From NCBI RefSeq assembly GCF_003473295.1, contig NZ_QRMP01000004.1:67318-131317 (forward strand): a stretch of DNA of 64,000 bases. Reading direction: 5' to 3'. Position 1 is the first letter of the stretch. Every line of letters begins with the position of its first letter. Source of the DNA: Parabacteroides sp. AM08-6. GTDB taxonomy: Bacteria > Bacteroidota > Bacteroidia > Bacteroidales > Tannerellaceae. Made by a program: the position numbers and the translations under genes. Under the pieces are notes generated by a model, which ran no database searches, was not told the origin of the DNA, and was given only the letters and a program-made list of their open reading frames with translations. Shown here in pieces: positions 23,706 through 48,497 of the stretch.

Positions 23706-24857
23706 TTAAGACAGACGAGCGATTGCCAGAATAGCCTCAGCAAAAGAGTCTGTTATATGTCGTTGTTCACTTTCTGTCATTTCCGTATGAATAGGCAGGG
23801 ATAACACACTCCGGCTCAATTTGTCCGACTCCTGTAACGAACCGCCAATACGAATTATTCCGCGATAAGCTTCCTGCAATTGCAAAGGCAGCGGATAATA
23901 CACCATGGACGGCACACCTCGTTCTTTCAGATATGCTTGTAACAAGTCCCGTTTTTTTTCTTCAACCTGAATTGTGTATTGATGATAGACATGGGTGGAA
24001 AAAGAGGATTTTAAAGGTAACAGAACATCTTGACAAGAAGAAAGAGCTTCATCATAACGGGAAGCTACTAATTGACGAGCTTGCGTAAATTCGGACAGAT
24101 ACCGGAGTTTTACATCCAAAATAGCCGCTTGTAAAGTATCCAAACGGGAATTACATCCGATTTGTTTGTGATGATATTTCCTCACCTGCCCATGATTGGC
24201 AATTTGATGAATACGTTCTGCCAATTGTACATCCGAAGTTATCAATGCACCTCCATCTCCATAACAGGCTAAGGGCTTGGATGGGAAAAAGGAAGTGGTC
24301 CCGATATGACCGATTGTTCCGGTTTTCTGCGTACGGCCATCCGGAAATGTATAAGTTGCCCCTACAGATTGAGCGTTATCTTCTATAACAAACAAATGGT
24401 GGACATCTGCCAACGACATAATCGACTCCATATCACACGATTGTCCGAACAGGTGAACAACAATGATAGCTTTTGTTTTAGGAGAAACAGCAGCCTCTAT
24501 CAGGGAAGGATTGATATTAAATGTCCGCGAATCGACATCAACCAACACCGGTGTCAATCCTAAAAGAGCAACAACTTCAGCCGCTGCCACATAAGTAAAT
24601 GCCGGAATAATTACTTCGTCGCCCGGTTTAAGCCCTAAAGCCATCAAAGCAATTTGAAGGGCATCCGTCCCGTTTCCACAAGGGATAACACTGGGGACAT
24701 CCAGATATTCGGCCAAATGGCGGGAGAAAGTCTTGACCTGCGGACCATTAATGAAAGAGCAATCATCCATAACAGATTGCATGGCAGTGTCTATATCATT
24801 CTTAAGACGAAGATATTGCCTATGCAAGTCGACCATTTGTATTTGCTTTTCAAACAT
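23706..24857 (-). CDS. DegT/DnrJ/EryC1 sugar aminotransferase
   Basis: A PLP-dependent aminotransferase of about 383 residues for nucleotide sugars. It has PCGNGTDALQIALMALGLKPGDEVIIPAFTY-type landmarks (NGTDALQ, DEVIIPAFTY), VIEDNAQSVGA, and SFFPSKPLACYGDGGA, whose Lys should bind PLP. I chose the ATG at 24857 because a GGGAGGGAGG ribosome site stands immediately before it. A start at 24872 would leave no such site. With the WlbA-like gene it would form a 3-amino-uronate sugar; the matching N-acetyltransferase (WlbB) is absent from the window. Confidence 0.88.
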   Translation of the reverse strand: MFEKQIQMVDLHRQYLRLKNDIDTAMQSVMDDCSFINGPQVKTFSRHLAEYLDVPSVIPCGNGTDALQIALMALGLKPGDEVIIPAFTYVAAAEVVALLGLTPVLVDVDSRTFNINPSLIEAAVSPKTKAIIVVHLFGQSCDMESIMSLADVHHLFVIEDNAQSVGATYTFPDGRTQKTGTIGHIGTTSFFPSKPLACYGDGGALITSDVQLAERIHQIANHGQVRKYHHKQIGCNSRLDTLQAAILDVKLRYLSEFTQARQLVASRYDEALSSCQDVLLPLKSSFSTHVYHQYTIQVEEKKRDLLQAYLKERGVPSMVYYPLPLQLQEAYRGIIRIGGSLQESDKLSRSVLSLPIHTEMTESEQRHITDSFAEAILAIARLS

Positions 24858-24880
24858 CCTCCCTCCCGGCATCTTGCTTG

Positions 24881-26920
24881 TTATTTCACTTCACTACCCG
24901 GCTTCACTTCTTTTTCAGGAGTGATTACAGCCAGTTTGCCATCGAAATTCTCGGCTGACAGTATCATACCTTCGGAAACGATACCTTTCAATTTACGGGG
25001 AGCCAGGTTGGCTATAAAGCAAACCTGCTTGCCTACCAGTTCTTCAGGAGCATAATGCTGGGCGATACCGGAAACAATCGTACGTTTCTCTAAACCGTCG
25101 TCGATACGGAATTGAAGCAATTTGTCGGCTTTCGGAACTTTTGTACATTCCAGAATAGTTCCCACACGGATATCCAACTTTGTGAAATCATCGAATGAGA
25201 TATTTTCACGGACAGGTTTTGCCTTGTAGTTGGCTTCTTCGTTTGCCTTTTTGGTATCCAAAAGCTTCTGAACCTGCGTTTCAATTACACTATCCTCTAT
25301 CTTTTCGAACAGAAGTTCGGATTTACCCAGTTGATGACCAGCTTCCAGCAAATCGGTTGCCCCTAAACGGTTCCAGCCTAAAGGTTCTACATTCAGCATT
25401 TTATTCAGTTTTTCCATGCTAAAAGGAAGGAACGGTTCGAATGCGATTGCAAGATTCGCCGTAATCTGCAAAGCTATATTCATAATAGTAGCGACACGAG
25501 CCATATCGGTTTTCGCCAATTTCCAAGGTTCAGTATCAGCCAGATATTTATTACCGATACGCGCCAGGTTCATCGCTTCTTTTTGAGCGTCACGAAAATG
25601 GAATGTATCGAGCAAACGTTCTACATCAGCTTTTACATCTGCAAAGTCGGTCAATGTCTGACGGTCGTAATCCGTCAGTTCACCGGCTGCAGGTACTTTC
25701 CCTTCAAAATATTTATCGGTAAGAACCAGGGCTCGGTTGACAAAGTTGCCCAAGATGGCTACTAATTCATTGTTATTGCGAGCCTGAAAATCTTTCCATG
25801 TAAAATCGTTATCCTTTGTTTCCGGGGCGTTAGCTGTCAGGACATAACGAAGTACATCCTGCTTACCCGGCATATCCACCAGATATTCGTTCAACCATAC
25901 AGCCCAGTTACGGGAAGTAGAGATTTTGTCTCCTTCCAGATTCAGGAACTCATTTGCCGGAACATTCTCCGGCAGATTATAAGAACCTTCAGCTTTCAGC
26001 ATAGCCGGAAATACGATACAATGGAATACTATATTGTCTTTGCCTATGAAATGAATCATTTTGGTTTCAGGGTCTTTCCACCATTTTTCCCAACTATCGG
26101 GTAATAATTCCTTCGTGTTGGAAATATAACCGATAGGCGCGTCAAACCAGACATAGAGAACTTTCCCTTCTGCTCCTTCTACCGGAACAGGAATACCCCA
26201 ATCCAAATCACGGCTTACCGCCCGCGGTTGCAATCCCATATCCAGCCAACTCTTACATTGTCCGTACACGTTCGGTTTCCACTCCTTATGTCCTTCCAAA
26301 ATCCATTCTCGAAGAAACGGTTCCCATTTATCAAGAGGAAGATACCAATGTTTGGTTTCTTTCATGACAGGCTTACTCCCGCTTATAGCCGATTTCGGGT
26401 CTATCAGGTCCGTCGGACTCAGAGAGGTGCCACAGGCCTCGCATTGGTCACCATAAGCCTTTTCATTGCCGCAATGGGGACAAGTTCCGGTGATATAACG
26501 GTCAGCCAGAAATTGTTTTGCTTCCTCATCGTAGTATTGTTCGCTCGTTTTTTCGACAAATTCGCCTTTATCATAGAGAGTACGGAAGAAATCCGAAGCC
26601 ATCTGATGGTGCGTAAGAGAAGTGGTACGGGAATAGATATCGAATGTGATTCCGAATTCTTCAAAAGATTTCTTGATGATACCATGATAACGGTCTACCA
26701 CATCTTGCGGAGTAATCCCCTCTTTTTTTGCTCTCAGCGTAATAGGCACTCCATGTTCGTCCGAACCGCCGATCATCAAAACCTCTTCCCCTTTCAGGCG
26801 AAGATAGCGGGCATAAATATCGGCAGGCACATATACTCCGGCCAGGTGACCGATATGTACCGGTCCGTTAGCATACGGTAACGCTGTAGTTATCAGCGTT
26901 CTCTTAAATTGTTTTTCCAT
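24881..26920 (-). CDS. metG: Methionyl-tRNA synthetase
   Basis: A class I synthetase of about 679 residues. It has [14 protein letters not shown] (HIGH motif), a four-cysteine zinc knuckle (CPHCGNEK...QCEACG), WFDAPIGY, and [13 protein letters not shown] in place of a strict KMSKS. A C-terminal OB-fold tRNA-binding domain ([14 protein letters not shown]) fills about the last 110 residues. I chose the ATG at 26920 (MEKQFKRT). An alternative start eight codons upstream lies inside the -7 box region. The two sugar enzymes begin 23 bases past its stop and are probably co-transcribed. Confidence 0.97.
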
Positions 26921-26943
26921 ACCTTGTGTTCTCTTTTGAGGCA

Positions 26944-26951
26944 CAAAGGTA
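26944..26951 (-). promoter_or_regulatory. -7 box for metG
   Basis: On the minus strand this reads TACCTTTG, 23 bases before the metG ATG at 26920 and just past the stop of the PCMD operon. It argues that metG has its own promoter. No exact -33 box is seen. Confidence 0.5.
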
Positions 26952-26970
26952 TGGAAAATATTGTAAATAA

Positions 26971-28614
26971 CTATTCGTATATCAGCTCAAAATCGTCAAT
27001 CCAGAGCGTGCTGCCTTCACCTCCGGTAAAATAGTCTCCGTATTTACTTGCGGAAGCCACAATAAGAATATACTTCGGCTTACGTGTCAGAGAACGATAA
27101 TCCAATTTGAGTTTGAATTCAGTCCAGTTACTGACAGTCTTATCTACTATCATCTCCTGATAAGCAATGATATGGGAATCGTTTTTGTCGAAAAGCTGAC
27201 GCGCAGATTTCATTGTTCGAATTCGTACCGGAGCATCCCAATCGCCTAACGCTATATAAATATGGGCTTTGTCATTCATTCCTTTTTGAGCGTCTTCAAT
27301 CGGATCGTCTGCCGATACACGGGTAATGGGAGTAGAAGTGTATTTAAACCAACCTTTTAAAGTGGTTGGTCGAACAGTAAAAGGACGTCCGAAATCCAAA
27401 ATTCCATCACTACTGTTCGTATCCAAATCTACAAATTTTCCGGTAAAGATATTTCCGGCAGCAAATTTGATTACGACCCATTCCGAACCTAACCGGGCAG
27501 AACGTCTCCCCCCATGTACAACGGTTTCATCATAATTTGTTACATTTTTGCCTATCACGGCAGCACCGCCATTACCGGAATCCCAGAACATATCTCCTCC
27601 TTCGGCATAAATCATCCAAGCTTTTCCATCTTTCCACCAATCTTCAAAACCCGGATTAGGCAACTGGGAGACAGGGTCCGTCGTAAATGTACGGATATCG
27701 TTTACCTGCGAGCCGACCGTAGCTTGGTATTCATAAACCGTAGAAGGAGAAAGATGCCGCATTACTGCAGTAAAACTCCCATTTGAAAACTCTATTTCAT
27801 CATCGAAAACCCGGTCCCATTCTTCTTCCCCTTGTTTACGATATTTGATATCAATTGCTGTTCCTTCAGCAGCATCACCAACCAAATAGGCGCGTTTAGA
27901 CCAGGCAGACAGAGTGATTGAAGAACCCGTAAAATGAACTACACTCACCGTCCATTCTTCTGTCTCGCCAAAAGCCGTGACTTTAAATTTTAAAGGACGA
28001 CGAAAATCTGTTATCCGCATAGGTTCCGGTTCCGTTTTTGCTATAGAAGACCCTAATACAAACTCTTCAACAGATAAACGACTTAAATCTGTTTTCTCTT
28101 CCACATAAATAATCACCTGTTTATTCTGCTCGTCGACAAGCGGGATGCCTACCTGCACATCTTGCCCGTCAGCGCCTTTTAGCTTAAAGCTTCTCTGAAT
28201 ATTCCGTTTAGCCGTAATTTGCCAGATATAATCCTGATAAGTGCTTAAAACAAAGTGTACCGGAGAAGACAAGTCTATATGCGTATTGGCTCCGGTAGCC
28301 AAACTGTCCAAAGATGCAAATCCGGTATCCGGAAAATGATTATAATCTTTACAAGCCAATGTATCCGGAGTAATTTTAACATCTTCGGATACAAGCAATT
28401 TTGTAATCCTGACATCACGCAAATCAGTTGTATCGTCAACCAATATCACAACTTCCCTGGTCTCTTTATTTATTGAAGCAGAAATAAAACCATCGGTTTC
28501 AATCTCTTTTATCTCTCCTTTTATAACCGGATAAGGAATATCATTTTCTATACATCCGGCCAATAGGTTGATGATAAACAGATAAATTATATATTTTTTA
28601 TATCGCATCATCAA
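26971..28614 (-). CDS. PCMD-domain lipoprotein (module A absent)
   Basis: A 547-residue lipoprotein; the lipobox ends LLAGC, followed by acidic IENDI. The first 230 residues contain two DUF5018-like beta units (each ending like [19 protein letters not shown]). Residues about 235-325 look like a fibronectin-III-like unit ([17 protein letters not shown]...FTTD). The rest is a PCMD domain (putative carbohydrate metabolism): [35 protein letters not shown], and a C-terminal [14 protein letters not shown] with [11 protein letters not shown]. It is the last gene of the six-gene operon and starts next to the barrel gene stop. The acidic residues suggest surface exposure. Function is unknown. Confidence 0.85.
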
Positions 28615-29343
28615 TTATAAATAGAAAGTAATACCTAAACTGATAGACAATAGATTTATCTGAAAATTCGCACCACTGCTTGTCCTTTTACCTGTTTCCA
28701 CCTGGTTAGTTTTCTGGTCATACCATTTAAAATCCAGTCCTAAAACGTCGACACATGCCTCTACAGCCGTAAAGTCGTTGATAAAGCAGGTAATCCCCGG
28801 TGCCAGACCAAAATTCAGATTCTGCTTAATCTGATGCGTCCCTTTCAAATCATCCCCTTTGCCATCTTCTACTTTACTTTGTCCGTAGCCATAAGTTACG
28901 CGTGCTTCATTGAACAAGCCAAATCGTTTGCTGTCCCCCAAGTTCAGATAGGTACGGACAAAAAATGAACCGGACACGGTATGAGACCTATCTTTGTAAT
29001 CAGATAAATCAAAATTAAGGTCATCCCCCAAATCTAAAGACAGATTTCCTAAATCCGTCAAACTGCGGGAATAAGCGACACGTCCGCCGATTGCGACATT
29101 ATCACGGATAAAATAACTGACAATCGGAGATACTTTAAAAGTATATCCCACACTGTTCACTTCGTCCAAGACCAACCATTTAAAGTTATCATCCGTATGT
29201 TCAGAATAAGAGAATGATGCTCCACACATCCATTGCCCTTTCGGAATGAATGTTTTCTGTTCTATACCACGGTCAAATTTCTCCCCTCTTGCCATTGCCG
29301 GTACACTACATGCCAGCAAAAGCATCACCAATATATGCTTCAT
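28615..29343 (-). CDS. Outer-membrane beta-barrel protein
   Basis: A 242-residue protein with a signal peptide (about 18 residues, ending PAMARG). Alternating hydrophobic strands follow, such as VGYTFKVSPIVSYFI, VAIGGRVAYSRS and GSFFVRTYLNLG, ending in INLLSISLGITFYL, a typical last barrel strand. It fits the small porin-like/OmpW-like barrels of Bacteroidetes. It is the only non-lipoprotein in the PCMD operon, with 6 bases to the upstream and none to the downstream gene. It may anchor or export the lipoproteins; that is inference. Confidence 0.8.
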   Translation of the reverse strand: MKHILVMLLLACSVPAMARGEKFDRGIEQKTFIPKGQWMCGASFSYSEHTDDNFKWLVLDEVNSVGYTFKVSPIVSYFIRDNVAIGGRVAYSRSLTDLGNLSLDLGDDLNFDLSDYKDRSHTVSGSFFVRTYLNLGDSKRFGLFNEARVTYGYGQSKVEDGKGDDLKGTHQIKQNLNFGLAPGITCFINDFTAVEACVDVLGLDFKWYDQKTNQVETGKRTSSGANFQINLLSISLGITFYL

Positions 29344-29349
29344 TGTTTG

Positions 29350-31590
29350 TTATTTGTTCGTATTAGCCGGTGTCAGTTCTTCCAAGAAAGTACCGATAAA
29401 AGAATTTTCATTATAATCAAAACCTAATTCATAATCATCGATATAAAGGACACTACTTTCACTCCCTGCAAAATAATCGCCATACTTACTGGCAGATGAC
29501 ACGATTAATATATATTGAGGAATACGCGTCAAATCACGATATTTTATATCAATATTAAACTGAACATAATCATCTTTTGATTTGATTGAATTAGAAGTAG
29601 TCGTACCTGTCTCAAATTTGCCGTAAGCAATGATTTCTTTATTATTTTCTGAGAAGTCGATAAATGTCTCCGGTTTGTTTGTATTAATCTGATAGGGAGC
29701 AGACTTGTCCAACAATGCGATATAAATACTGCATGTATCAGGTTGCCCCACAGACAAATTGGAATTACCTTTATAATCTATCGGGCCGGTTGTATAATGA
29801 TAATAACCTGTAAGTTTTGTCGGTCTGAGATTTACTGAAACTTTCTGACCAAAATTCAAAATACCCCCCATTCCTGAAACATCTACAAAATTACCGGTAA
29901 ACAAACTTGCCGCAGCAAATTGCCCCAAAGAACCAAAGCCAACAAAAACAGAAGCTAATTTTGCGGCATATTGACCACCGTGAGCTATCGTTGTTTTTGA
30001 TGTCGGGTTTTTAGTCCCAATCGTATTGGCACCCCTATTCCCGGAATCCCAGAAAACAGGTTCACCTTCCAAATTGGCCATCGCACTTTTCCCATCTGAA
30101 TATGTAGTCCAATCGTCAAATCCCAAATTCGGAATAAAAGGTTTACCACTCGTATCCGAATTCACAAAACCAGTAGTAAATTGAACTTCATTACCATAAA
30201 CAGTAACTCCAGCCGGACTTACTCCTACCGCACGATACAGGTAAGCAGTACAGGGCTTCAAACCAACAATCAAACTCGAAAAAGCTTCCCCTTTCTTTAT
30301 CGAATCAAAGGAGACTTCATTCCAATCTTCTGCCGACAATTCCTTATATTGGAAACCTAAACCGTTTTCATACTCAGTACTTCCCTTTAATACTGCAAAT
30401 GTAGCCCACAAACTTTCAACATCGGCAGTAATAACATCTCTATTGGGTTTTGCCTCATACGTCAACGTTATCGTTTGTTCCTGATGCTTTTTATCCATTA
30501 CACAGAATGTAAACTGATGTTTTTGGATAGCATCTTCATCGGAAAGCAATTTACCGCTCATGGCACTCAAATCGAGAGTCAATTCCGTTGCCGAAACATC
30601 CGGTAACGGGAATTCCATTGTTTCCAATTTAGCACGGTCATCGGCCGTAAGCTTCACAAAATCAAAATCATACAGGCCTTGTTCATTCAACTGTTTGGAA
30701 CGGACAGACATCGTAAAGGTTTCTATACCTGCTTTTACTTTCAATGTCAAGCCATTAGGTGCTCCGACGCCCGCTTTCATACTCAATGTATAATTCTCGT
30801 CAAACCCTTCCAAACTAAATTCCGGAACCTTCAAATTATCCAAATCCTCCACTTCAATCGGAATTCGGACAAAGACAGTATCCGCCGTCTCATCTACCGT
30901 TATATCAAAATTTCCACCTGCAACTCCTTCCTTATCAGGGACATCCTCTCCCAAAGAGAATTTTAAGTTATAATGACAACGTTCTTTTATATCCGGAAAA
31001 ACACGTTTTAATTCGAATTTCTGTCCGTCCTTATTGACTAGGTTCAATAAAGCAGTTAGCTTTTCCGCAGCAAAAAAACCTCCGCGTGTTTCTCCTTTTT
31101 CATATCTCAGAGAACCGGAACTATTACTTACGGTAGTACTATAATCAGGAAAATACTCCTTAAACTGGTTTGTATAATCGACCGTCACTTTCGTATTCGC
31201 TATTTTACATACGACTTTCACAACACTTACTTCATTCGCCACAATCTGAAATTCTTCCTTCCCATAAAAATAAGGAGTCTCCCATACTGCAGAATCAGCC
31301 TGACCTGAAGTTATTACAACCTGATAAGCACCGGCATCGAGCAATATATCCTCCTTCATTGCCGTACTATCATAACCCGGAATAAATTTCACCGTATCTT
31401 CAGCTTCGTCCAAAATCAATACGTTCAAATTAATCTCATAGGCCTTTGTTTGTAACGCGACATTATTTTCTATATCCAGAAACAGATAACCCTTATTCCC
31501 TTTCGCTCCCGCATGTTCATCATCGCATGAATAAAAGCAAGCAACGAGTATCGATAATATACCATAAACAAACTGTTTCATATTCTGCAT
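29350..31590 (-). CDS. DUF4493 + PCMD lipoprotein
   Basis: A 746-residue lipoprotein; the lipobox ends FYSC followed by acidic DDEH. Module A (DUF4493, about residues 25-230) has AGAYQVVITSG, PYFYGKEEFQI and VVCKIANTKVTVDYT. Module B (about 255-380) is Ig-like. A fibronectin-like unit (about 385-470) and a PCMD domain ([58 protein letters not shown]) follow. Its PCMD closely resembles that of the gene at 26971. A unique 15-residue tail follows the PCMD. It begins 3 bases after the preceding gene. Probable surface protein of unknown function. Confidence 0.85.
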   Translation of the reverse strand: MQNMKQFVYGILSILVACFYSCDDEHAGAKGNKGYLFLDIENNVALQTKAYEINLNVLILDEAEDTVKFIPGYDSTAMKEDILLDAGAYQVVITSGQADSAVWETPYFYGKEEFQIVANEVSVVKVVCKIANTKVTVDYTNQFKEYFPDYSTTVSNSSGSLRYEKGETRGGFFAAEKLTALLNLVNKDGQKFELKRVFPDIKERCHYNLKFSLGEDVPDKEGVAGGNFDITVDETADTVFVRIPIEVEDLDNLKVPEFSLEGFDENYTLSMKAGVGAPNGLTLKVKAGIETFTMSVRSKQLNEQGLYDFDFVKLTADDRAKLETMEFPLPDVSATELTLDLSAMSGKLLSDEDAIQKHQFTFCVMDKKHQEQTITLTYEAKPNRDVITADVESLWATFAVLKGSTEYENGLGFQYKELSAEDWNEVSFDSIKKGEAFSSLIVGLKPCTAYLYRAVGVSPAGVTVYGNEVQFTTGFVNSDTSGKPFIPNLGFDDWTTYSDGKSAMANLEGEPVFWDSGNRGANTIGTKNPTSKTTIAHGGQYAAKLASVFVGFGSLGQFAAASLFTGNFVDVSGMGGILNFGQKVSVNLRPTKLTGYYHYTTGPIDYKGNSNLSVGQPDTCSIYIALLDKSAPYQINTNKPETFIDFSENNKEIIAYGKFETGTTTSNSIKSKDDYVQFNIDIKYRDLTRIPQYILIVSSASKYGDYFAGSESSVLYIDDYELGFDYNENSFIGTFLEELTPANTNK

Positions 31591-31593
31591 CTT

Positions 31594-32928
31594 TTATTTA
31601 ACCACTAAAGTCAATGTTGCTTTAGCAGATTTACCATCCACATCCTTTACTTCTATATTGAACTTATGCGTACCTGATATTTCAGACAGTATCGGCATAA
31701 AACCTGTAATATCGAACGTAATTGTTGTTTTCTGTCCTTCAACAGGCAATGTCATCGTCGAGAATAAATTCTTTTGGATTTCCGTTAAATTCAACATGTC
31801 AAAACGAGAACCGCCAACTGCCGGCAATAAAGGAGCCAATGTGGGCGAATCAATATTTACAATTAACGATTTCAAACCAGCCGGGGCCGTAATGGCGACT
31901 TTTACCTTCGAATTGGCATCTACCGTAAACGCCCCCGTAATATCAGCAGGGATAATCCCCTTAATAGTCGGCTTGGTATTTATGGTTCCTCCCCCTTCAC
32001 CGGAACCACTATCCGAGCTACCTCCTCCATCTGCCGGAATAAAATTGGATGGAATTTCAATCGTATAATCACGTTCCACCAATTTCACATCCACTTTAAT
32101 AACAGGACGCTCCACGCTACCGCCTTCTTCATCCGTACCCGGTCCCGGCTCAGGCTCCGGAGTTGGATCGACAACCCCGATTGAATCCGAAGGAATAGAA
32201 GGTATCGTATCAGGCACTACATCAAGGACAACAAGTATATTATTGTAGTCCTTAACTGTCGGATTTTCAAATAAATCACATTGATAATTTACATCCAAAC
32301 CTTTTTTCGTCGTCGCATGCAAAATAAAATTCAGATTATCGGTCGTTTTAAAATAGGGTATTTTCGTATCTCCGGCATGTGAAGTCAGAACTCCTAGACC
32401 ATTGGTCATTACAATATCATAATCTGACTCAAAACGTTCCAAAAACTCATCGGAAAAAACGACTGTCACTTTTTTATTTTCCAAGACACAAGGTGTCACG
32501 ACATCTGCAACTTCTTTCGGATTTACTACACACAATTGTATACCTTGGTAATATGGCTTATCATATGCGGCAATTTCCAATTCGCCTTTTGCTGCTACCA
32601 CCTGATAATTTCCGGCAGGAAGCAATAATTCATCAATATCGGCATAAGAATCATAACGACGCACAGCTTTACCCTCTTCATTCAATATTTCTACTGAAAA
32701 GTCATTTACATCTAAAGTCTCATCAGAAGCTTTAGTATTAGCAGAGGTAGACACTTCCTTTTGAGGATCCAGCTTCAAGGCCAATAATCCCATTTGTTCC
32801 GAGGAAATTGTATTTTCATTTTTTTCGGGGGCTTTTACTCCACCTGTCAAATCCTGCTTCATTTCACAAGATGAAAAGGCAAGTAGCAATCCAATCGATA
32901 AATAAACTATACTAATATACTTTTTCAT
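31594..32928 (-). CDS. DUF4493 lipoprotein (modules A and B only)
   Basis: A 444-residue lipoprotein; the lipobox ends FSSC, followed by EMKQD. Module A (about residues 45-235) has PAGNYQVVAAKG, KPYYQGIQL and VTPCVLENKKVTVVFSDEF. A Pro/Glu/Gly-rich linker (PTPEPEPGPGTDEEGG) and a Gly/Ser linker follow. Module B (about 320-444) carries TLPVEGQKTTITFDITGF. It lacks the fibronectin and PCMD parts and ends right after module B, so it looks like a complete shorter subunit rather than a broken gene. It is third in the operon. Confidence 0.82.
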   Translation of the reverse strand: MKKYISIVYLSIGLLLAFSSCEMKQDLTGGVKAPEKNENTISSEQMGLLALKLDPQKEVSTSANTKASDETLDVNDFSVEILNEEGKAVRRYDSYADIDELLLPAGNYQVVAAKGELEIAAYDKPYYQGIQLCVVNPKEVADVVTPCVLENKKVTVVFSDEFLERFESDYDIVMTNGLGVLTSHAGDTKIPYFKTTDNLNFILHATTKKGLDVNYQCDLFENPTVKDYNNILVVLDVVPDTIPSIPSDSIGVVDPTPEPEPGPGTDEEGGSVERPVIKVDVKLVERDYTIEIPSNFIPADGGGSSDSGSGEGGGTINTKPTIKGIIPADITGAFTVDANSKVKVAITAPAGLKSLIVNIDSPTLAPLLPAVGGSRFDMLNLTEIQKNLFSTMTLPVEGQKTTITFDITGFMPILSEISGTHKFNIEVKDVDGKSAKATLTLVVK

Positions 32929-32942
32929 TGTCTATTACGTAT

Positions 32943-33689
32943 TTAGAAAGACACTTTTACAGCGGGTTTTTCCCCATCAAATGTTATAATATAATACTCG
33001 CCTATCGACGGATTTCCATTTCCATTCTTGACATAATAAGTCCGTGTAGGATAAGGCTCACCGGCATTTTTAGGTTGTACTGTAACTGTCAGTTTAATTG
33101 ACTCCCCTATCCGGTCAAAATAGATAATTTGTCCTTTATTTTCCCGGGTATAAGTCACTTTCCCATTTTGCCCGTTTTCAACAATAATCGAATAATTATC
33201 GCTGAAAAGATAATTAAAGTTATCCGACATACGGATATCAACTCCCACGTTACTAAACTTACAGACTAACTTATCAACCGTGGTAACTGTTTTATCTTCA
33301 ATTTCAAAATTTTGTTCAGCCATAAAATAAGGTTTATCATATACACCGTTTTCAGGTTCGCACGAATAGACATAAACTTTGTACGAACCGACAGGAAGGA
33401 CAACCATCGGACGTTCCCCATCCAGCATTTCCTGATAAGAAGTATATTTTTTTACAGTTTCCCCCGTAATACGGTTTATGATTTCCACTTGGAAAGTAGT
33501 AACATCCATATCGAAGCTTTTCGTACGAATGACTGTTATTTCCGAACTATCCTCAACCGCGACAGTACGGAGATTCAGCCCGCCACATCCTTCAGGCAAT
33601 GCTGTATCATCCATATCTTTTTGACACGAAGCTACCAGCATACAAAAAAGGCTGAACAACAAGATTGATATGTTATATTTCATTTTCAT
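32943..33689 (-). CDS. DUF4493 lipoprotein (module A only)
   Basis: A 248-residue lipoprotein; the lipobox ends LVASC, followed by QKDMDD. It consists of module A alone: PVGSYKVYVYS, KPYFMAEQNFEI and KLVCKFSNVGVDIRMSDNF align with the N-terminal parts of its neighbours. It is the smallest of the four DUF4493 proteins. The gene starts 3 bases after the upstream gene and ends with a normal stop, so there is no sign of truncation. Second gene of the operon. Confidence 0.82.
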   Translation of the reverse strand: MKMKYNISILLFSLFCMLVASCQKDMDDTALPEGCGGLNLRTVAVEDSSEITVIRTKSFDMDVTTFQVEIINRITGETVKKYTSYQEMLDGERPMVVLPVGSYKVYVYSCEPENGVYDKPYFMAEQNFEIEDKTVTTVDKLVCKFSNVGVDIRMSDNFNYLFSDNYSIIVENGQNGKVTYTRENKGQIIYFDRIGESIKLTVTVQPKNAGEPYPTRTYYVKNGNGNPSIGEYYIITFDGEKPAVKVSF

Positions 33690-33692
33690 ATT

Positions 33693-36347
33693 TTATTCGT
33701 AAATTAATTCGACGTCATCGATGTAAAGTTGGCTACCTTCGAAATACTTATATGTATTATTATGGTGTCCAAAATATTTATCCAAATAGTCATTCGCATT
33801 TTCACTCAAGCTACCTCCTATATCTTCATATTTAGAAGAAGACAAAAACTCTAAATAGAAATGGGTTGCTTTCAAATTCATATATTTAGAATCATACTTT
33901 ATCTCAAAGCTTTCATCGACATAGCTATTAGTGACCATAGTTCCAATATATTCACTATAACCAATTCTAATAGAAGAATCTCCTTCTCTATGTTCAGCAA
34001 CTGCACGAATTTTAAAAGAATTATCTTCCCCATATGATACATACTTATACGCAAATTTCACTCCTGATGGTCTTGAAGTAAAAGGTATTCCATAATCATA
34101 AGTTTCTTCATTATTCTTGTGATTATAACTATAATCACCTAAAAACAATTTCCCTACAGAAAAATGCTTTATGACTGTAGCCAATCCTAAAACTTTATAA
34201 GAGTTTCCAGATCCATTATCCCAGCCCACACTACGAAGTAAAACACCATTTCCTTCTTTACCTGATGTCTTAACCGTAGAAGGACGCAAATTCCAAGTTG
34301 ATAAAACATTCGGAGAACCTCCAAATGTTTTATCATTCACAGTTGACCATCCTTTTGGTTGATTCGCTGTAACTGTATATTTTTTACTCCATAGAAAAAC
34401 ATCAGCACCACTATATAAAGATTTATTCCAATCCTCTTCCCAATTATCCATCCCACCATTTTCCAACATTTTTGCATCTTCTGTTACAAAGGAAAATTCT
34501 TGATTTCTATTTCTTTCATTCTCATAAACAGCTCGCACCATATAATTCGCACTTGGTGTAAGCCCTTTCAACGTATCAATCACCACTGTTCCCTCTTTGA
34601 CGCGAGCATCAGCAGACACATCCACCCAGCTATCTCCTTCCTTCTTCTGGAACTTCAACTTTGTGGAAAGGCCCACTTTTACATCAGCCCTGAGGATTGC
34701 TCGCTTAGCAAACACATCACCTTCATTTTCCGCCATTACGAATTCGAACACTGGTATTTTGACCAAGATAGTATTAGTCAGAGTCGTACTCATCAAAGAT
34801 TCCGAGCCTTCTTTCGCATCAACTGTAATACTCAATTCATAAGGTTGGTCACTGTCTGATAAAGCATTTAATTTTTGAGTAAACTCCTTCGATATAGTTA
34901 ATACACCTTTTGTATCAGCATCACTCAATACCAGTTCAGCACCGAATGCTGCCAACTGTTCAGTCGTATATTTCGTTTCCTCTCCGACAGCATCTTTCAG
35001 TGAGACAGTCACCTCCTTGATACCCCCTTCAGCTTCCAGCTTGACAACCAAATCTTGATTCAAAGACTCCCCTTCAACAACCCCGTTAACCGGCCATTCC
35101 GTTTCCGGTTTTATTTTCGGAGACGCATAAAAACGTTTCACAAATAAGCGGACAGTATCCGTATAGTTCGTTACCGGTAAATTATCTTTAATAAAGAATA
35201 TAAATTCATATTCCTTATCTTCGCCAATATAAGGCAGACGTTTGAATGCTTCTTCAAGTTGCAAAGCTGCATTCTTTTTATAATTGAAAAGAGAACTGCC
35301 GCCCCAATCGAAACCGGCATTCACAGCAGCTACCGCCCCTGCAGAATTCGCAATATCATATTTGACCGTATCTTCAGAACCCGCTATCGTCTGCCAGATA
35401 TGGAAACTACCGATACCCGAAGGAACGCCAAACGCAAGATAAGGAGGAACATCCAGCCCATCACCCGAAATAGCAACATGGTCGCCATTTTCAAAATCCT
35501 GCGCTTTCAGTGTCGGTTTATCAAAAGGTTTCCACATAAAATCAGGAATCGTATCATTCAATTCGACTTCCTCCATCGTATCATCCAATACAACAGATAA
35601 AGCAAGGCCATCGCCGGTCTTTCCGTCCGTCGTGAATTTTAATGTAATTGATTCTTTCGGCAGGATAGTAATTGCAGGGTTGGTAACCGTATAAACTTTA
35701 GCCTCCGTCCAACCGTTCCGTTTTAAAGAGATAGCCACATTCAAAGCCGTTCCATCCCTATCCGTCTCCAGATAAGCATAGCGTGTTTCTTCTTTCGAGA
35801 TAAGAAAAGGAGAATCCAGATAAGAAGTTTTCAGCATCACGGTATAATTGGTATATGCTTTCAGGAAATCCTCGCTATATTCGGTTTTTACACGTGCGTT
35901 AGCCATCGTACAAGTCACTTCCAAGGGCGTTTTCATGCCCTCTTTAATCGTAAATTCCCTGCTTCCCTCAAAATAAGGATTATCAAATGCAGCCGGGATG
36001 TTTTCTCCTTTGAAAGCTTTCAAGGTATAATTACCTTCTTTCACAGCCAACTCATTTGGGAAATCCCGATACAAAAAGCTTTCAAGCGTATCCTCCTCTT
36101 GAATGATACGGATTGCATAGTTCTCCACTTCCTGAAAACTATCAAACTCACCAATCGCTTTAGTAGTCAGAGTTCCTCCCCTAATACCCGTCGTATCCGC
36201 GGACAGGCTTAAACTTAAACTTCCCTTGCGTTGAGTCTCACTCAAACGGTCGGAATCGCAAGAAAAAAGTCCTGCAGTCCACGACAGGACACAAACAAAA
36301 ATTATCATAGCCTTCACCAGACCATACCTCAATTCACATTTTTTCAT
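33693..36347 (-). CDS. Large DUF4493 + PCMD lipoprotein, first gene of the operon
   Basis: An 884-residue lipoprotein; after a long N-terminal h-region the lipobox ends LFSC, followed by DSDRLSE. Module A (about residues 35-250) has KEGNYTLKAFKG, NPYFEGSREFTI and VTCTMANARVKTEYSEDF. An extra Ig-like unit (about 270-410) precedes module B (about 410-540) and a fibronectin-like unit (about 540-630, LKGLTPSANYMVRAVYEN). A divergent PCMD domain ends in FYLEFLSSSKYEDIGG and LYIDDVELIYE. The PCMD carries an insertion rich in Asn and Tyr. It opens the operon, opposite the AraC-type gene. Confidence 0.83.
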   Translation of the reverse strand: MKKCELRYGLVKAMIIFVCVLSWTAGLFSCDSDRLSETQRKGSLSLSLSADTTGIRGGTLTTKAIGEFDSFQEVENYAIRIIQEEDTLESFLYRDFPNELAVKEGNYTLKAFKGENIPAAFDNPYFEGSREFTIKEGMKTPLEVTCTMANARVKTEYSEDFLKAYTNYTVMLKTSYLDSPFLISKEETRYAYLETDRDGTALNVAISLKRNGWTEAKVYTVTNPAITILPKESITLKFTTDGKTGDGLALSVVLDDTMEEVELNDTIPDFMWKPFDKPTLKAQDFENGDHVAISGDGLDVPPYLAFGVPSGIGSFHIWQTIAGSEDTVKYDIANSAGAVAAVNAGFDWGGSSLFNYKKNAALQLEEAFKRLPYIGEDKEYEFIFFIKDNLPVTNYTDTVRLFVKRFYASPKIKPETEWPVNGVVEGESLNQDLVVKLEAEGGIKEVTVSLKDAVGEETKYTTEQLAAFGAELVLSDADTKGVLTISKEFTQKLNALSDSDQPYELSITVDAKEGSESLMSTTLTNTILVKIPVFEFVMAENEGDVFAKRAILRADVKVGLSTKLKFQKKEGDSWVDVSADARVKEGTVVIDTLKGLTPSANYMVRAVYENERNRNQEFSFVTEDAKMLENGGMDNWEEDWNKSLYSGADVFLWSKKYTVTANQPKGWSTVNDKTFGGSPNVLSTWNLRPSTVKTSGKEGNGVLLRSVGWDNGSGNSYKVLGLATVIKHFSVGKLFLGDYSYNHKNNEETYDYGIPFTSRPSGVKFAYKYVSYGEDNSFKIRAVAEHREGDSSIRIGYSEYIGTMVTNSYVDESFEIKYDSKYMNLKATHFYLEFLSSSKYEDIGGSLSENANDYLDKYFGHHNNTYKYFEGSQLYIDDVELIYE

Positions 36348-36670
36348 CTATACAGCGAATAGTTCTATTTTCGTCTTAACTTACTCTCAATCAAAAATCA
36401 CTAAACAATTTGATAATATTGCTCTCCCTTTAAATATATCTTGACCCAAAAAAACGCTGCAAATTAACGGTAAACGCAAAAAAAGTACAAGGTCTATTTA
36501 TACGATCACGTGTCCTCTTTTTTAGATTCTCAACAAATTACAGCAATGAAACGCATTGAAACACATAGGATAATGTTTTTTTTCACAACGCGAGTGTCCC
36601 ATACTTAAGATAACCGGTATCCCTTTTACAAAAATCTACTTATCTTTGCGAGCATCACAATTTTTGAAAG
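36348..36670. other. Divergent control region between PCMD operon and AraC regulator
   Basis: A 323-base AT-rich gap with no plausible gene. A TATCTTTG -7 box for the regulator is at 36641-36648. On the minus strand I find no exact TAnnTTTG before the operon, so its promoter may be activator-dependent or use another sigma factor. A-tracts (for example 36446-36453 and 36477-36484) could bend DNA for regulator binding. Confidence 0.5.
36641..36648 (+). promoter_or_regulatory. -7 box for the AraC-type regulator
   Basis: TATCTTTG, 22 bases before the ATG at 36671. No exact TTTG is found at -33. Confidence 0.5.
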
Positions 36671-37516
36671 ATGGAGAATGATATACCTAAAATAGACTTA
36701 CCCGGAGACTGGGTAATCGGAACAGACTTGAGCCGGGAGATACTGAGTTTGTACACCAATTTTCCCTGCCGGTTGAAGGCGGAAATATTCGTACTTTGCA
36801 TGCAAGGGGAAATTGAAGCTTCTATCAATCTGGCACATATACAGGTCAAACCGTTCGACTTTGTCACAATTCTGCCGGGGAGTATTTTTCAGATACATAA
36901 GGTGAAAGGAGATTTGAAGATTTATTTTATGGGATTTTCTTCCGGCTTTATCAGCTATGTCAATATAGCGAAATCATCTATGGACCTTGCTTATTCCATC
37001 CGGGAAAGACCGGTTATTTCTTTTGATGAAAGGGCGGCACAACTATTAGAGGACTATTTCTCCTTATTAATAAAGACATACGGTTTTTGCGGGGATAAAC
37101 TAAATAAAAAAGTGACAGAGCACCTGTTTTCCGGTATACATCTCGCTATAGGAGCAATGTATAAAGACAAAACTTATAACAACGAGAAAATTCTGTCGAA
37201 AAGCCAACAGATTAGTAAAGATTTCGGGCAGCTCGTCATGCAAAACTATCACAAGGAACGGAATGTTTCCTGGTATGCCCAAAAATTAGGTATCACACAC
37301 GCCCATCTTTGCACGACCGTTAAACAGGTGACAGGGCAAACTTGTATCGAAATTATTTCGGCAATGGTTATTATGGATGCCAAAGCACAACTAAAATCGA
37401 CCGACCTTTCCATACATGACATCGCTTATTCGTTGAATTTCACAAATATGTCATTCTTCGGGAAATACTTTAAACGGCATGTCGGCGTCGGACCACAAGA
37501 ATATAGAAATAGCTAA
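36671..37516 (+). CDS. AraC/XylS-family transcriptional regulator
   Basis: A 281-residue regulator with an N-terminal cupin-like sensing domain (about residues 1-165; FDFVTILPGSIFQIHKV is typical) and a C-terminal double helix-turn-helix (about 180-281). The second half reads VSWYAQKLGITHAHLCTTVKQVTGQT and IHDIAYSLNFTNMSFFGKYFKRHVGVGPQEYR, the AraC signature. It is divergent from the DUF4493/PCMD operon and is the only regulator in the region, so it probably controls that operon. The ligand is unknown. Confidence 0.92.
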   Translation: MENDIPKIDLPGDWVIGTDLSREILSLYTNFPCRLKAEIFVLCMQGEIEASINLAHIQVKPFDFVTILPGSIFQIHKVKGDLKIYFMGFSSGFISYVNIAKSSMDLAYSIRERPVISFDERAAQLLEDYFSLLIKTYGFCGDKLNKKVTEHLFSGIHLAIGAMYKDKTYNNEKILSKSQQISKDFGQLVMQNYHKERNVSWYAQKLGITHAHLCTTVKQVTGQTCIEIISAMVIMDAKAQLKSTDLSIHDIAYSLNFTNMSFFGKYFKRHVGVGPQEYRNS

Positions 37517-37571
37517 ATTCTATATTCTACAAAAACCAAGGTCTCTAAAATTAAAAGGCTTCCCTTGCCGA

Positions 37572-39086
37572 TTACCGGTCGTCAATCTTTATTAATTCCT
37601 CAATAAACGTCCGGTCGTTGCTGAGACGAGGTATTTTATGTTGCCCGCCTAATTTCCCTTTACTTTTCAGCCATTCATAAAAGGTACCTTCGCGAGCAAC
37701 AATAATTTTGAGAGGCTGAAGGGATATTTCTTTATAGCGTTTGGCTTCGTAATCGGAATTCAGTCCCTGCAACGTTTTGTCCAACAATGAGGCGAAATCA
37801 TCGACAGAAAGAGGCATCTTTTCAAATTCGATAAACCATTGGTGGTAACCTTTTGCCTTATCCAAAACAAAAAACGGAGCGGCCGTATATTCTTTCACTT
37901 TGGCTCCCGTTTCCCTGCTTACCAAGCTAATCGCTTTATCCGCATTATCCACCATCAGCTCTTCACCAAAAGCATTGATATAGTGTTTGGTACGTCCGGA
38001 TATTACAAATTTATGCGGATACAAAGAAGTGAAACGGACGGTATCCCCAATCAGATAACGCCATAATCCTCCGGAAGTCGTAATGACCATCGCATAGTTT
38101 TTGCCCGTTGTGACCGCTTCCAAAGGAAGCACGGTCGGGTTATCGGAGCCAACCTCGTTCATCGGGATAAATTCGTAAAAGATACCATAATCCGGCATCA
38201 TCAACAAGCTTTGCTCCGCCGGGTCATCCTGCATGCCGAAGAAACCTTCCGAAGCGTTATAGGTTTCCATATAATGCATCTTATCCGACGGGATAAGCGT
38301 CTTATACTGGTCCCGATAAGGCTCGAAACTGATACCTCCGTGAAAAAAGACTTCCAAATTCGGCCACACATCCGTCAGATATTCACATCCGGTTTTCCTC
38401 AACACGGATTTAATCAGCACCAACATCCACGATGGGACACCGGAGAGACTGTTCACATCCTCTTTCCAAGTACTATCTACGATGGCCTTTATCTTACTTT
38501 CCCATTCGTCCATCAGAATAATACGCTTGGCTGGAACCCGTATCAGGTTGACTAATGGATTCAAGTTCTGCAATAATACAGCAGACAAGTCGCCGCAATG
38601 CGACTTGTGATTAATTGGTGAAGGGCTGTGGCTACCACCCAATATCAACCCTTTCCGGGAAAAGAAATTACTTTCAGGATTGTTTCGAAGATAGAGAGCA
38701 ACGGTATCGAAGCCTCCTTTATAATGGCAACCTTTCAATATTTCAGGGGTAACAGGCAGGAATTTACTCTTATCGTTCGTGGTACCGCTACTTTTAGCAT
38801 ACCACTTGACCACCGAAGGCCACAGAATATTCCTTTCCCCGTTAATCATACGCGCGACATAAGGCTTAATGTCGTCATATATCTGCAATGGTACCCGCTC
38901 ACGAAAATCAGCATAGCTACGGATGCTTTTATAATCATACTTCAGACCCCACTCCGTATTTCGTGCGGTCGAAAGGAGGGATTGCAGCTGTTCCCGCTGG
39001 ATACTGTCCGTATCCTGCCCAAACCTTGCAATCTCTTTTTGTCGTGGACGGAAGAGTAGTGATATTGTGTTTGTTAAAATATCCAT
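37572..39086 (-). CDS. GH3 auxin-responsive-promoter-family acyl-adenylating enzyme
   Basis: A protein of about 504 residues of the plant GH3/JAR1-like fold within the acyl-adenylate superfamily. Landmarks are AKSSGTTNDKSKFLPVTPE (ATP-binding Ser/Thr-rich loop, near residue 95), GGISFEPYRDQY, METYNASEGFFGMQDD, TTSGGLWRYLIGDTVRF and ISGRTKHYINAFGEEL. Plant relatives conjugate amino acids to hormones. Bacterial members are common in Bacteroidetes and their substrate is unknown. I chose the ATG at 39086 because it lies just inside a -7 box; a start 12 codons upstream would overlap the promoter. Confidence 0.85.
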   Translation of the reverse strand: MDILTNTISLLFRPRQKEIARFGQDTDSIQREQLQSLLSTARNTEWGLKYDYKSIRSYADFRERVPLQIYDDIKPYVARMINGERNILWPSVVKWYAKSSGTTNDKSKFLPVTPEILKGCHYKGGFDTVALYLRNNPESNFFSRKGLILGGSHSPSPINHKSHCGDLSAVLLQNLNPLVNLIRVPAKRIILMDEWESKIKAIVDSTWKEDVNSLSGVPSWMLVLIKSVLRKTGCEYLTDVWPNLEVFFHGGISFEPYRDQYKTLIPSDKMHYMETYNASEGFFGMQDDPAEQSLLMMPDYGIFYEFIPMNEVGSDNPTVLPLEAVTTGKNYAMVITTSGGLWRYLIGDTVRFTSLYPHKFVISGRTKHYINAFGEELMVDNADKAISLVSRETGAKVKEYTAAPFFVLDKAKGYHQWFIEFEKMPLSVDDFASLLDKTLQGLNSDYEAKRYKEISLQPLKIIVAREGTFYEWLKSKGKLGGQHKIPRLSNDRTFIEELIKIDDR

Positions 39087-39109
39087 GCTCCTTTTAATTG
39101 TATCAAGCA

Positions 39110-39117
39110 CAAAGGTA
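39110..39117 (-). promoter_or_regulatory. -7 box for the GH3-like gene
   Basis: On the minus strand this is TACCTTTG, 23 bases before the ATG at 39086. It is back-to-back with the pfkA promoter. Confidence 0.5.
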
Positions 39118-39136
39118 GGCATTCTCTTTTTATTTA

Positions 39137-39144
39137 TATCTTTG
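39137..39144 (+). promoter_or_regulatory. -7 box for pfkA
   Basis: TATCTTTG, 23 bases before the pfkA ATG. It lies only 20 bases from the divergent -7 box of the GH3-like gene. Confidence 0.55.
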
Positions 39145-39167
39145 CTGTATACATAATTAACATAACG

Positions 39168-40181
39168 ATGAAAATAGGTATCCTTTCTTCAGGTGGCGAT
39201 TGTCCGGGTATTAACGCAACAATCCGGGGCGTAGGTAAAACAGCAATCATGCATTACGGGATGGATGTGATTGGCATCCACAGTGGATTTATCGGACTGT
39301 TAAACAAAGACATTCAGGCTTTCGACGAACGTAGCCTGTCCGGTATCTTGAATCTGGGAGGAACCATTCTCGGTACTTCCCGCGAAAAACCTTTCCGCAA
39401 AATGCTGGCTTCCGGCGAGAGTGAAAAGCCGCAAATTATTCTACAAAATTATGAAGAATTAGGATTGGACTGCCTGGTTTGTATCGGAGGGAACGGTACG
39501 CAAAAGACCGCTGGCATGCTTTCCGCACTCGGAATGAATATTGTCGGTGTTCCCAAAACCATCGATAATGACATCTGGGGTACGGATATCACGTTCGGTT
39601 TCGATACCGCAGTCAATATAGCGACAGAGGCTATCGACCGCCTGCATTCTACAGCCAGTTCGCATAAACGCGTCATGGTCGTTGAAGTGATGGGACATCA
39701 TGCCGGCTGGATAGCTTTATATGCCGGTATGGCGGGAGGTGCCGATGTAATCTTGCTTCCCGAACTGGGCTACGATATGGAAAAAGTGAATGAGACTATC
39801 CTGAACCGAGCCCACCGTGGAAAACCTTATTCTATCGTTGTGGTCGCCGAGGGTATCACAACCCCCGACAAGAAACGTCCTTCCGACTATATCACCCGTG
39901 CCATCGAGGAAGCTACCGGCATCGAATCACGAGACACTGTTTTAGGATATATTCAGCGCGGCGGCAATCCCTCGCCTTTCGACCGTAACTTGGCAACCCG
40001 TTTAGGCGGACATGCCACGGAACTGATAGCAAAAAAACAGTTTGGACGCATGGTCTGTATGAATGGGGAAAAAGTAGAATCCATTCCATTATCGGAAGTA
40101 GCCGGCAAATTGAAATTAGTGACGCCCGATCATGACTTAATCATACAAGGGAAAAGAATGGGAATTTGTTTTGGGAAATAA
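39168..40181 (+). CDS. pfkA: 6-phosphofructokinase
   Basis: A 337-residue phosphofructokinase, the committed step of glycolysis. It has SSGGDCPGINATIRG at the N-terminus, CIGGNGTQKTAG near residue 105, VGVPKTIDNDIWGTD near 125, FGFDTAVNIA, VEVMGHHAGW and LGYIQRGGNPSPFDR. The Gly after the Asn of GGNGT together with the Lys of PKTIDND is the combination found in the ATP-using clade that otherwise looks PPi-like. The first motif has Asn where GGDGS enzymes have Asp. The phosphoryl donor should therefore be treated as open, with ATP favoured. Confidence 0.94.
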   Translation: MKIGILSSGGDCPGINATIRGVGKTAIMHYGMDVIGIHSGFIGLLNKDIQAFDERSLSGILNLGGTILGTSREKPFRKMLASGESEKPQIILQNYEELGLDCLVCIGGNGTQKTAGMLSALGMNIVGVPKTIDNDIWGTDITFGFDTAVNIATEAIDRLHSTASSHKRVMVVEVMGHHAGWIALYAGMAGGADVILLPELGYDMEKVNETILNRAHRGKPYSIVVVAEGITTPDKKRPSDYITRAIEEATGIESRDTVLGYIQRGGNPSPFDRNLATRLGGHATELIAKKQFGRMVCMNGEKVESIPLSEVAGKLKLVTPDHDLIIQGKRMGICFGK

Positions 40182-46966: not shown

Positions 46967-48472
46967 TTAAAACTGGCTTACTTCCTGATCTATATAGTTG
47001 GCTCTGTTTTTCAGCCAAGTTTTCAATTCTCTCACTTTGGCGTCATATGAGCGGGTCTTTTCCCAAATCTCACTATCTTTTTTCGCAGATGGTTTAAGCA
47101 CTTCGGAGTAATCATCTATATATTGTAGCAGCTGACTTAATTTATTCTTCTTAAAATCTTGCCAAACTTCTTTATACAATGCTCTCACCCGGCTGTCTTG
47201 CAGGAAACGCTGGAAAAAGACCGTTCCGATACCTTCCCCTACCTGATTAGAAAAAAGCGGGGTGTTATACCTACCAAAGTGAACTCCTGTCCCTTCATAA
47301 TCAAATGCCCAGTCAAAATCCCAAAGAGGACCCATCACATATTTACCACCTTTCTCCTTATGGATAAAAATACTTTTCGGATGATTAATTTCCATATTGT
47401 GCACCAGATTAAAGGTAATTAAATACTTAACGACTGATTCTATATCAATCATATCCACATACGTGTTCGTATTCAACGGTTCTTTAGCGAACTGCCCCAT
47501 AAACGCGTTAAAATCCTTCCGCCAGTAATCAAACTGTTCCGCTGACAAATCCGGATCTTTCACCATCACAGGAAGGTTATATATTTCCGACTTGAACTTC
47601 GGGTCTTCATCAAAATAGGAATCAAGCTCCCACATGACACTGTTATCTTCGTCCAAATCCACGCGATTTTTTTTCACTTCAATCTGTTCTGTCAGCAAAT
47701 AAGAGCCTTTATATTTGCCATTCAGGACTACATCTACAGGGATTGCATGATTTGTGAAAGGAAGTTCCAACAGATGTCCGATTTTGAAAGTCACCGAATT
47801 CAACATTAATGTCGGGTCGATATAGTTTGCCAACAATACATAGTTCTTAGCCTCTCCAAAACCGCAGATTTCCGCTTTCTTATCGAGTTTCAACCGGTAA
47901 GGTTTCTTTGGATAGCCCCAAGTTGAGTTACCACGTCCCTTTATCTGGGTTTTACCGGTATAGTCTTCGTAAACACCTTTTCCCTTCACCGTCAAAGTAG
48001 CATCCAAGTAATCGTCTTTACTTGGTATTTCAGTTATGGAAGGATCATTCAGCGTTATGACGAATTCGGGAACGCCCAATACCCGGTCCGGGTCATCATT
48101 CATCAAATCAATCTTGACAGTGTAGGAGACTTTACTTCCGTCTTCAGCCACCACTGCGATAATCAATGGTTGGGAATAATCATTCGCGGTCACACCCGAT
48201 TTCTGCTCCACACCATTTATCGTAAGGGCTTTCCCTTCATATACGAACGTAGCAATCAACGAGGTCAAGTTATTGGACCGATAAAACGGCAATACGACCT
48301 GGTCGCCTTGAATAACTGCTTCTACATCACCACTGATTTTACCTTGATTGTCACTTTCCAAAAGAGAAAAGCTTACCAACTGTTTCGTTGAAGAAAGTGG
48401 AGTTTCTTCGTCTTTACAAGCAGAGAACAGTAATATAAAAACTACCAGAACTCCAAAAATTTTATTTACCAT
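46967..48472 (-). CDS. CotH-kinase-family lipoprotein
   Basis: A lipoprotein of about 501 residues; the lipobox ends LFSAC, followed by acidic KDEE, suggesting surface display. Residues about 25-125 form a DUF5018-like beta domain (motif AEDGSKVSYTVKI). The CotH domain fills the rest: IKGRGNSTWGYPKKPYRLKL, YVLLANYIDPTLMLN, GSYLLTEQIEVKKNRVDLD, and KYVMGPLWDFDWAFDY, which carries the metal-binding Asp residues of this atypical protein kinase fold. The target is unknown. I chose the ATG at 48472 because it starts the signal peptide; the longer reading adds 15 non-signal residues. Confidence 0.88.
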   Translation of the reverse strand: MVNKIFGVLVVFILLFSACKDEETPLSSTKQLVSFSLLESDNQGKISGDVEAVIQGDQVVLPFYRSNNLTSLIATFVYEGKALTINGVEQKSGVTANDYSQPLIIAVVAEDGSKVSYTVKIDLMNDDPDRVLGVPEFVITLNDPSITEIPSKDDYLDATLTVKGKGVYEDYTGKTQIKGRGNSTWGYPKKPYRLKLDKKAEICGFGEAKNYVLLANYIDPTLMLNSVTFKIGHLLELPFTNHAIPVDVVLNGKYKGSYLLTEQIEVKKNRVDLDEDNSVMWELDSYFDEDPKFKSEIYNLPVMVKDPDLSAEQFDYWRKDFNAFMGQFAKEPLNTNTYVDMIDIESVVKYLITFNLVHNMEINHPKSIFIHKEKGGKYVMGPLWDFDWAFDYEGTGVHFGRYNTPLFSNQVGEGIGTVFFQRFLQDSRVRALYKEVWQDFKKNKLSQLLQYIDDYSEVLKPSAKKDSEIWEKTRSYDAKVRELKTWLKNRANYIDQEVSQF

Positions 48473-48497
48473 AGCATCAAATAAAAAGTTGTTTGCA

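Follow-up and report, generated by a model that had tools for sequence, protein, structure and literature searches.

The closest described counterparts of the system analyzed here are the type V (FimA/Mfa1) fimbriae of Porphyromonas gingivalis and Bacteroides, in which a surface protease cuts the lipoprotein pilins at their N-terminal end and opens a groove for the next subunit, as described in three papers (PMC12632263; PMC5954841; PMC7616799). A surface survey of Parabacteroides distasonis describes Fim and Mfa clusters in that species (PMC9409006). A second point of comparison is provided by the polysaccharide utilization loci (PULs), the surface glycan-binding proteins (SGBPs) of which are lipoproteins with immunoglobulin-like (Ig) or fibronectin type III (FN3) stalks and a C-terminal binding-type module. 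Both systems share traits with an operon of Parabacteroides sp. AM08-6, located in a 64,000-nucleotide stretch of contig NZ_QRMP01000004.1 (positions 67,318 to 131,317; hereafter the window). Four of its genes encode DUF4493 (PF14900) proteins that, like type V pilins, are lipoprotein subunits with a predicted two-domain fold and a lysine or arginine (K/R) after the first strand; as in type V fimbriae, the operon combines several different subunits, with C-terminal binding domains on the tip-type ones. The operon appears to encode a so far undescribed relative of type V fimbriae and is found, with conserved gene order, in many gut Bacteroidales. A search of the open literature, with most subscription journals outside its coverage, returned no paper on DUF4493 or on PCMD (PF13201, putative carbohydrate metabolism domain).

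The six genes lie on the minus strand at positions 26971-36347, separated by 0, 6, 3, 14 and 3 bases in the open reading frame (ORF) listing, and are transcribed in the order A (884 residues), s (248), B (444), C (746), barrel (242) and E (547) (Table 1). This is the arrangement given in an earlier note made from the sequence, which counted five lipoproteins and one barrel protein; indeed, a lipobox-type cysteine is visible in all five non-barrel proteins, and the 242-residue product is a probable barrel with a sub-threshold OMP_b-brl hit (24.6 bits vs a cut-off of 28.7). The ORF of E begins with TTG followed by two ATGs, and its start is uncertain by 1-2 codons.

Table 1. Positions of the operon genes, putative sites and associated features (window coordinates unless a locus is named)
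Feature	Positions	Strand	Content and basis
Gene A (884 aa), first gene of the operon	33693..36347	-	Lipoprotein: DUF4493 pilin-type domain, Ig/module-B-like middle, FN3-like, diverged PCMD head; Pfam, own profiles; 68 DUF4493 proteins in slot A across loci
A, putative maturation Lys63 (T-T-K-A)	36159..36161	-	Aligned column
Gene s (248 aa)	32943..33689	-	Lipoprotein, DUF4493 pilin-type domain only; Pfam, AlphaFold model, fold search
s, putative maturation Lys57 (R-T-K-S)	33519..33521	-	Aligned column
Gene B (444 aa)	31594..32928	-	Lipoprotein: DUF4493, Pro/Gly/Ser-rich linker, C-terminal module B (Ig-like)
B, putative maturation Lys66 (N-T-K-A)	32731..32733	-	Aligned column
Gene C (746 aa)	29350..31590	-	Lipoprotein: DUF4493, module B, FN3, PCMD (jelly roll like carbohydrate-binding modules); Pfam, own profiles, model, fold searches
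C, putative maturation Lys49 (Q-T-K-A)	31444..31446	-	Aligned column
Barrel gene (242 aa)	28615..29343	-	Probable outer-membrane beta-barrel; sub-threshold Pfam OMP_b-brl, motif, alignment
Gene E (547 aa)	26971..28614	-	Lipoprotein without DUF4493: N-terminal region, FN3-like, PCMD by Pfam; motif at lipid site
E, Cys21, presumed lipid site	28552..28554	-	Start of C-I-E-N-D-I-P-Y-P
AraC-type regulator (281 aa), divergent from the operon	36671..37516	+	Pfam HTH_18, E-value 7e-18
Large downstream proteins of other loci	L006:14973-19766, L007:14674-20502, L002:15498-19592, L004:15052-20478, L008:11467-15393, L026:14571-18536		

Domain content and predicted folds

Pfam analysis reports DUF4493 in C (E-value 7e-43), B (3e-30), s (5e-30) and A (3e-36), the four proteins in which the earlier note had seen the shared module. 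PCMD is reported for C (3e-38), E (1e-47) and, weakly, A (1e-7; 32 bits for a cut-off of 28), and sits C-terminally in each. Our own profiles match module B in C and B, and an FN3-like segment in C, E and A. E has FN3-like and PCMD parts without the shared module, as previously read, and s (DUF4493 only), B (plus module B) and C (plus module B, FN3 and PCMD) show the size series of the earlier note. In A, the module B profile returns no match and PCMD is weak; module B is present in several slot-A proteins of other loci.

The AlphaFold model of s and a fold search with it assign DUF4493 the two-domain transthyretin-like fold of type V (FimA/Mfa) pilins. DUF4493 is thus predicted to be a type V pilin-type domain, a relationship newly recognized here. 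A fold search with the model of C indicates that its PCMD resembles jelly-roll carbohydrate-binding modules (CBMs), and the Bacteroides ovatus SGBP-B structure (6e57) stands in row 42 of the Foldseek list for this protein. A PDB sequence search with E returns four PCMD entries, 3hbz (BT_2081), 4het (BT3745), 3s30 (BVU_0247) and 4jrl (BACOVA_00087), structural-genomics-type structures titled putative glycoside hydrolases, which differ from the operon proteins in that no pilin domain is matched in them; the same search with A and s gives no meaningful match (best E-values 0.13 and 0.36). Judging from this fold search, the PCMD heads look like binding modules and may bind carbohydrates.

Lipoproteins, a barrel and a ligand-binding jelly roll could also make up a vitamin, haem or metal acquisition set, which we regard as very improbable. 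Jelly-roll lipoproteins of Bacteroides thetaiotaomicron do bind vitamin B12, but they belong to another family, DUF4465, and PCMD as a term is absent from the accessible part of the paper (PMC12751083). Pfam reports no TonB-dependent receptor in the operon. In addition, a barrel of 242 residues is far too small for such a receptor.

Maturation-type site and proposed assembly

A lipobox for signal peptidase II is found, with a loose regular expression, in 215 of 219 DUF4493 proteins. In the alignment of their N-terminal parts, one column holds K/R in 198 of 217 rows (R in 102, K in 96), and the residue after it is A or S in 190 of 216. The resulting T-(K/R)-(A/S) motif falls after the first strand (G-x-L-x-L) and before the following one (F-x-V-x-I), where type V pilins are cut. 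It is kept in every slot (A, 65/68; s, 15/17; B, 56/68; C, 62/66), and some of the misses, several of them in B, are alignment slips that still exhibit TKA, TKS or TKG, the stricter count being retained here. Among the control sets, K/R stands at the matching place in 18 of 19 Mfa_like_1 and 9 of 11 FimA proteins. The Mfa2 set (n=12) includes several proteins unlike anchors; the five that read as clear anchors are devoid of K/R at the site by eye, and another of its members, L089, shows T-T-K-G. Further K/R columns occur downstream along the sequence in the FimA and Mfa2 sets. Taken from these alignments, the K/R position is a conserved maturation-type site at which DUF4493 proteins may be cleaved. 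Clostripain-type (C11) peptidases are present in 19 of 20 operon-bearing genomes, a count which, having no operon-free set beside it, speaks for compatibility only.

The earlier note had offered two ideas, subunits of one structure or a glycan-binding set sharing a docking module. With a predicted pilin fold and a conserved maturation-type site, the shared module amounts to more than a means of docking, which supports the former; since the PCMD heads look like binding modules, both halves may hold. On balance, we lean towards the operon encoding a heteromeric surface assembly akin to type V fimbriae, a reading that draws on the fold predictions, site, lipoboxes, domain content, synteny and co-occurrence computed here. 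A, s, B and C would be exported as lipoproteins and cut after the conserved K/R by a trypsin-like or clostripain-like surface protease; the cut would remove the lipid with the first strand and open a groove, and the subunits would join by strand exchange. A and C would be the binding tips, with CBM-like PCMD heads on Ig/FN3 stalks, and B, together with s where present, would provide spacer or adaptor subunits. E would keep its lipid and form the base with the barrel(s). A complex of fixed stoichiometry and a long fiber are equally likely forms of this assembly. More tentatively, and with a probability that we place clearly lower, the operon might represent a barrel-based type V branch, distinct from Fim/Mfa pili, that builds a short fiber of fixed order with carbohydrate-binding heads, seated via E on its dedicated barrel. 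DUF4493 thereby gains a predicted structural identity and a testable mechanism, and DUF4493, PCMD and the barrel are brought together as parts of a single unit conserved in common gut genera. If the fiber is real, it would be a second conserved type V-like surface organelle beside the many fimbrillins, with a membrane barrel, and its genes a definable set for learning what the carrier bacteria hold on to.

Several observations weigh against a fimbria-like assembly. The FimA/Mfa Pfam families return no match in the operon proteins at an E-value of 0.1, and hhalign comparison of the mature parts, with signal peptides cut imperfectly in a few rows, yields only a weak likeness (Mfa2, 37%; FimA, 22%; Mfa_like_1, 1.9%; controls, 0.3-1.5%). 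The 93-94% of a first profile comparison was a signal-peptide artefact. Because the likeness fell once signal peptides were cut, the case rests on predicted fold and site and not on sequence homology. Moreover, A, B and C end in other domains, and neither an evident donor strand nor an obvious repeated stalk gene is found. These two absences, as well as the CBM-like PCMD and the Ig/FN3 stalks with C-terminal heads on A, C and E, would suit a non-polymeric complex for the capture of glycans or other ligands, in which the lipoproteins stay lipid-anchored round the barrel and the pilin fold is only structural heritage. We consider such a complex rather unlikely, since a permanently anchored protein would not need K/R followed by A/S at one place in 198 of 217 rows. 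Furthermore, Pfam reports no SusC, SusD or glycoside hydrolase in the operon, and none figures in the 25 most frequent families from a scan of 82 flanking proteins (out of 104 listed; 111 rarer families apart). Unlike in PULs, the commonest flanking families are of the AraC type and housekeeping genes.

Gene order, barrel and gene E across Bacteroidales

A profile of C-type proteins, run against a species-level genome collection, returned 519 relatives; the 80 best loci were retained, so that the set is enriched for close relatives; an earlier genome scan with the single 746-residue protein had returned none. In the ORF maps of these loci and the window, the order A-(s)-B-C-barrel(s)-E is kept in 60 of 81, the genera by title being Parabacteroides, Barnesiella, Coprobacter, Odoribacter, Cryptobacteroides and Bacteroides, with Muribaculaceae in addition; the nearest named relatives are from Parabacteroides. 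Gaps between members have a median of 7 bases, and 277 of 298 measure 50 bases or less, those of 400 bases or more being excluded. Among the fetched loci, a small DUF4493 gene in the s position, between A and B, is characteristic of Parabacteroides, and some Bacteroides-type loci have small DUF4493 genes placed after E instead.

Seven of the 21 loci without the full order carry the barrel(s) and E without an adjoining A-B-C (L053, L065, L070, L072, L075, L079, L080); six have other genes upstream, and the seventh, L065, has its barrel at the end of a contig, so that its split is not proven. In each of these seven genomes, three DUF4493 genes are clustered on a single stretch elsewhere (search positive in nine of nine genomes), so that the two cassettes tend to stay together even when apart. 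Several other loci are short or reach a contig edge (e.g., L021, L036, L039, L055, L059, L068, L074, L078), and L009, L016, L045, L060, L062 and L071 either represent variants or contain genes that are fragmented or escaped detection. In the genus of Parabacteroides gordonii, DUF4493 is present in 32 of 38 genomes. The P. gordonii genome G001 bears two operon copies (C1:1987000-1996400 and C2:1543100-1551200), each with four DUF4493 genes, barrel and E. Other genomes of the genus set (G136, G155, G159, G166, G168 and more) show a variant layout in which a small DUF4493 gene is joined by one of B size and by a third, shorter gene (~580-640 residues), the G136-type variant having further DUF4493 genes several kb off on the same contig.

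Co-occurrence was analyzed in 119 Bacteroidales genomes, including the center G001 and G005, both already known as operon carriers. DUF4493 is found in 10 genomes, the barrel profile in 18 (7 strong, E-value 4e-29 or better, the next being 5e-10) and the profile of the E N-terminal part in 62 (6 strong, 3e-80 or better, the rest partial). The genomes with at least three DUF4493 genes are the same seven as those with a strong barrel, an overlap with a chance of 1.8e-11 if kinship is ignored, which is only a guide because the sampled genomes are related. In six of the seven, a strong E also adjoins the barrel and the cluster of DUF4493 genes. In the remaining genome, G103, five divergent DUF4493 matches are spread over three contigs, with a weaker barrel on another contig and no strong E (C42, C14, C21, C47), possibly an alternative way of arranging these components. 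Among ten genomes picked via the loci, all 42 DUF4493 matches lie within such clusters. The conservation of gene order that the earlier note had put forward as a check is thus borne out by most loci, but not by G017, G052 and G127, each of which has one DUF4493 gene and lacks a strong barrel or E, nor by the scattered genes of G103.

The barrel protein exhibits an F-D-R-G-I...F-I-P-K-G motif near its start and a C-terminal F-Y-L, and relatives have one or two copies; F/Y-I/V-P-K-G is kept in 62 of 76 first barrels. Mean column identity is 44% for the barrel (31 rows), 37% for C, 37% for the N-terminal part of E and 21% for DUF4493, in alignments with differing row choices; part of the invariance of the barrel alignment reflects selection, since its rows were chosen for the F-I/V-P-K-G motif. 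A motif like C-I-x-N-D-x-P-Y-P marks the lipid site of E in 68 of 77 proteins, and seven of the nine misses show a variant by eye. Devoid of a pilin domain, E is proposed to be the retained anchor. Its N-terminal part (~170 residues) matches eleven adjoining stretches in a 2596-residue open frame of a Bacteroidales genome (G039 C25:45679-51471). The base of E may, on sequence likeness, derive from a repeat of giant surface proteins.

The operon differs from type V fimbriae in its small barrel, PCMD heads, E without a pilin domain, absence of Mfa2/FimB and few copies per genome, G001 having 51 Mfa_like_1 matches vs 8 of DUF4493. We know of no report of a membrane barrel in known type V pili. 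It might nevertheless be an ordinary type V pilus locus diverged beyond Pfam, with A and C as tip, B and s as stalk, E in place of Mfa2 and the barrel as an incidental passenger, a possibility fed by the predicted pilin fold, the K/R site and the tip-type C-terminal domains. It seems improbable to us: mean column identity is higher for the barrel than in any other alignment made, and the barrel lies between C and E, stays beside E where E stands apart, and is strong only in those of the 119 genomes with at least three DUF4493 genes. Furthermore, Pfam finds no anchor pilin (Mfa2/FimB) among the six operon proteins, and classical fimbrillin genes are separately present in operon-bearing genomes, with Mfa_like_1 and FimA elsewhere in 8 of 8 and an Mfa2 match in 12 of 14 (G007 and G018 being without any).

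Regulation and neighboring genes

The divergent AraC-type gene, which possibly regulates the operon, has look-alikes by eye in L002 and L006. Like the pilin fold, the K/R site and the motif of E, it goes beyond the earlier note. A methionyl-tRNA synthetase gene, identified by eye, lies directly downstream of the operon (24881-26944), and the start of the same gene is near the operon in L002 and L006. The Bacteroidetes-type promoter pattern has no match in 36348-36670 (11 in the window vs 3.3 expected), and Rfam at gathering cut-offs reports nothing in 24000-39500. A phase-variable promoter is unsupported, with a single weak 13-nt inverted repeat (85%) in 36200-36800.

Downstream of the operon, six Parabacteroides loci carry a same-strand protein of 1300-1940 residues (Table 1). 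Listeria-Bacteroides repeats occur in all five of these proteins scanned, L004 being judged by eye, and a type IX secretion system (T9SS) sorting domain is sub-threshold in L026 and absent from L006, the two tested. They recall the T9SS-secreted Mfa5 of P. gingivalis, which is named in PMC5954841. Such a protein was rejected as an operon part: none stands beside the window's operon, and a 2007-residue protein of the window has no match to the L006 one (best E-value 0.54). This protein of the window, encoded at 142-6165 (+), shows YDG, MBG, Big_2 and beta-helix matches and a T9SS sorting tail just below threshold. Lastly, positions 46967-48517 encode a CotH-kinase family protein.

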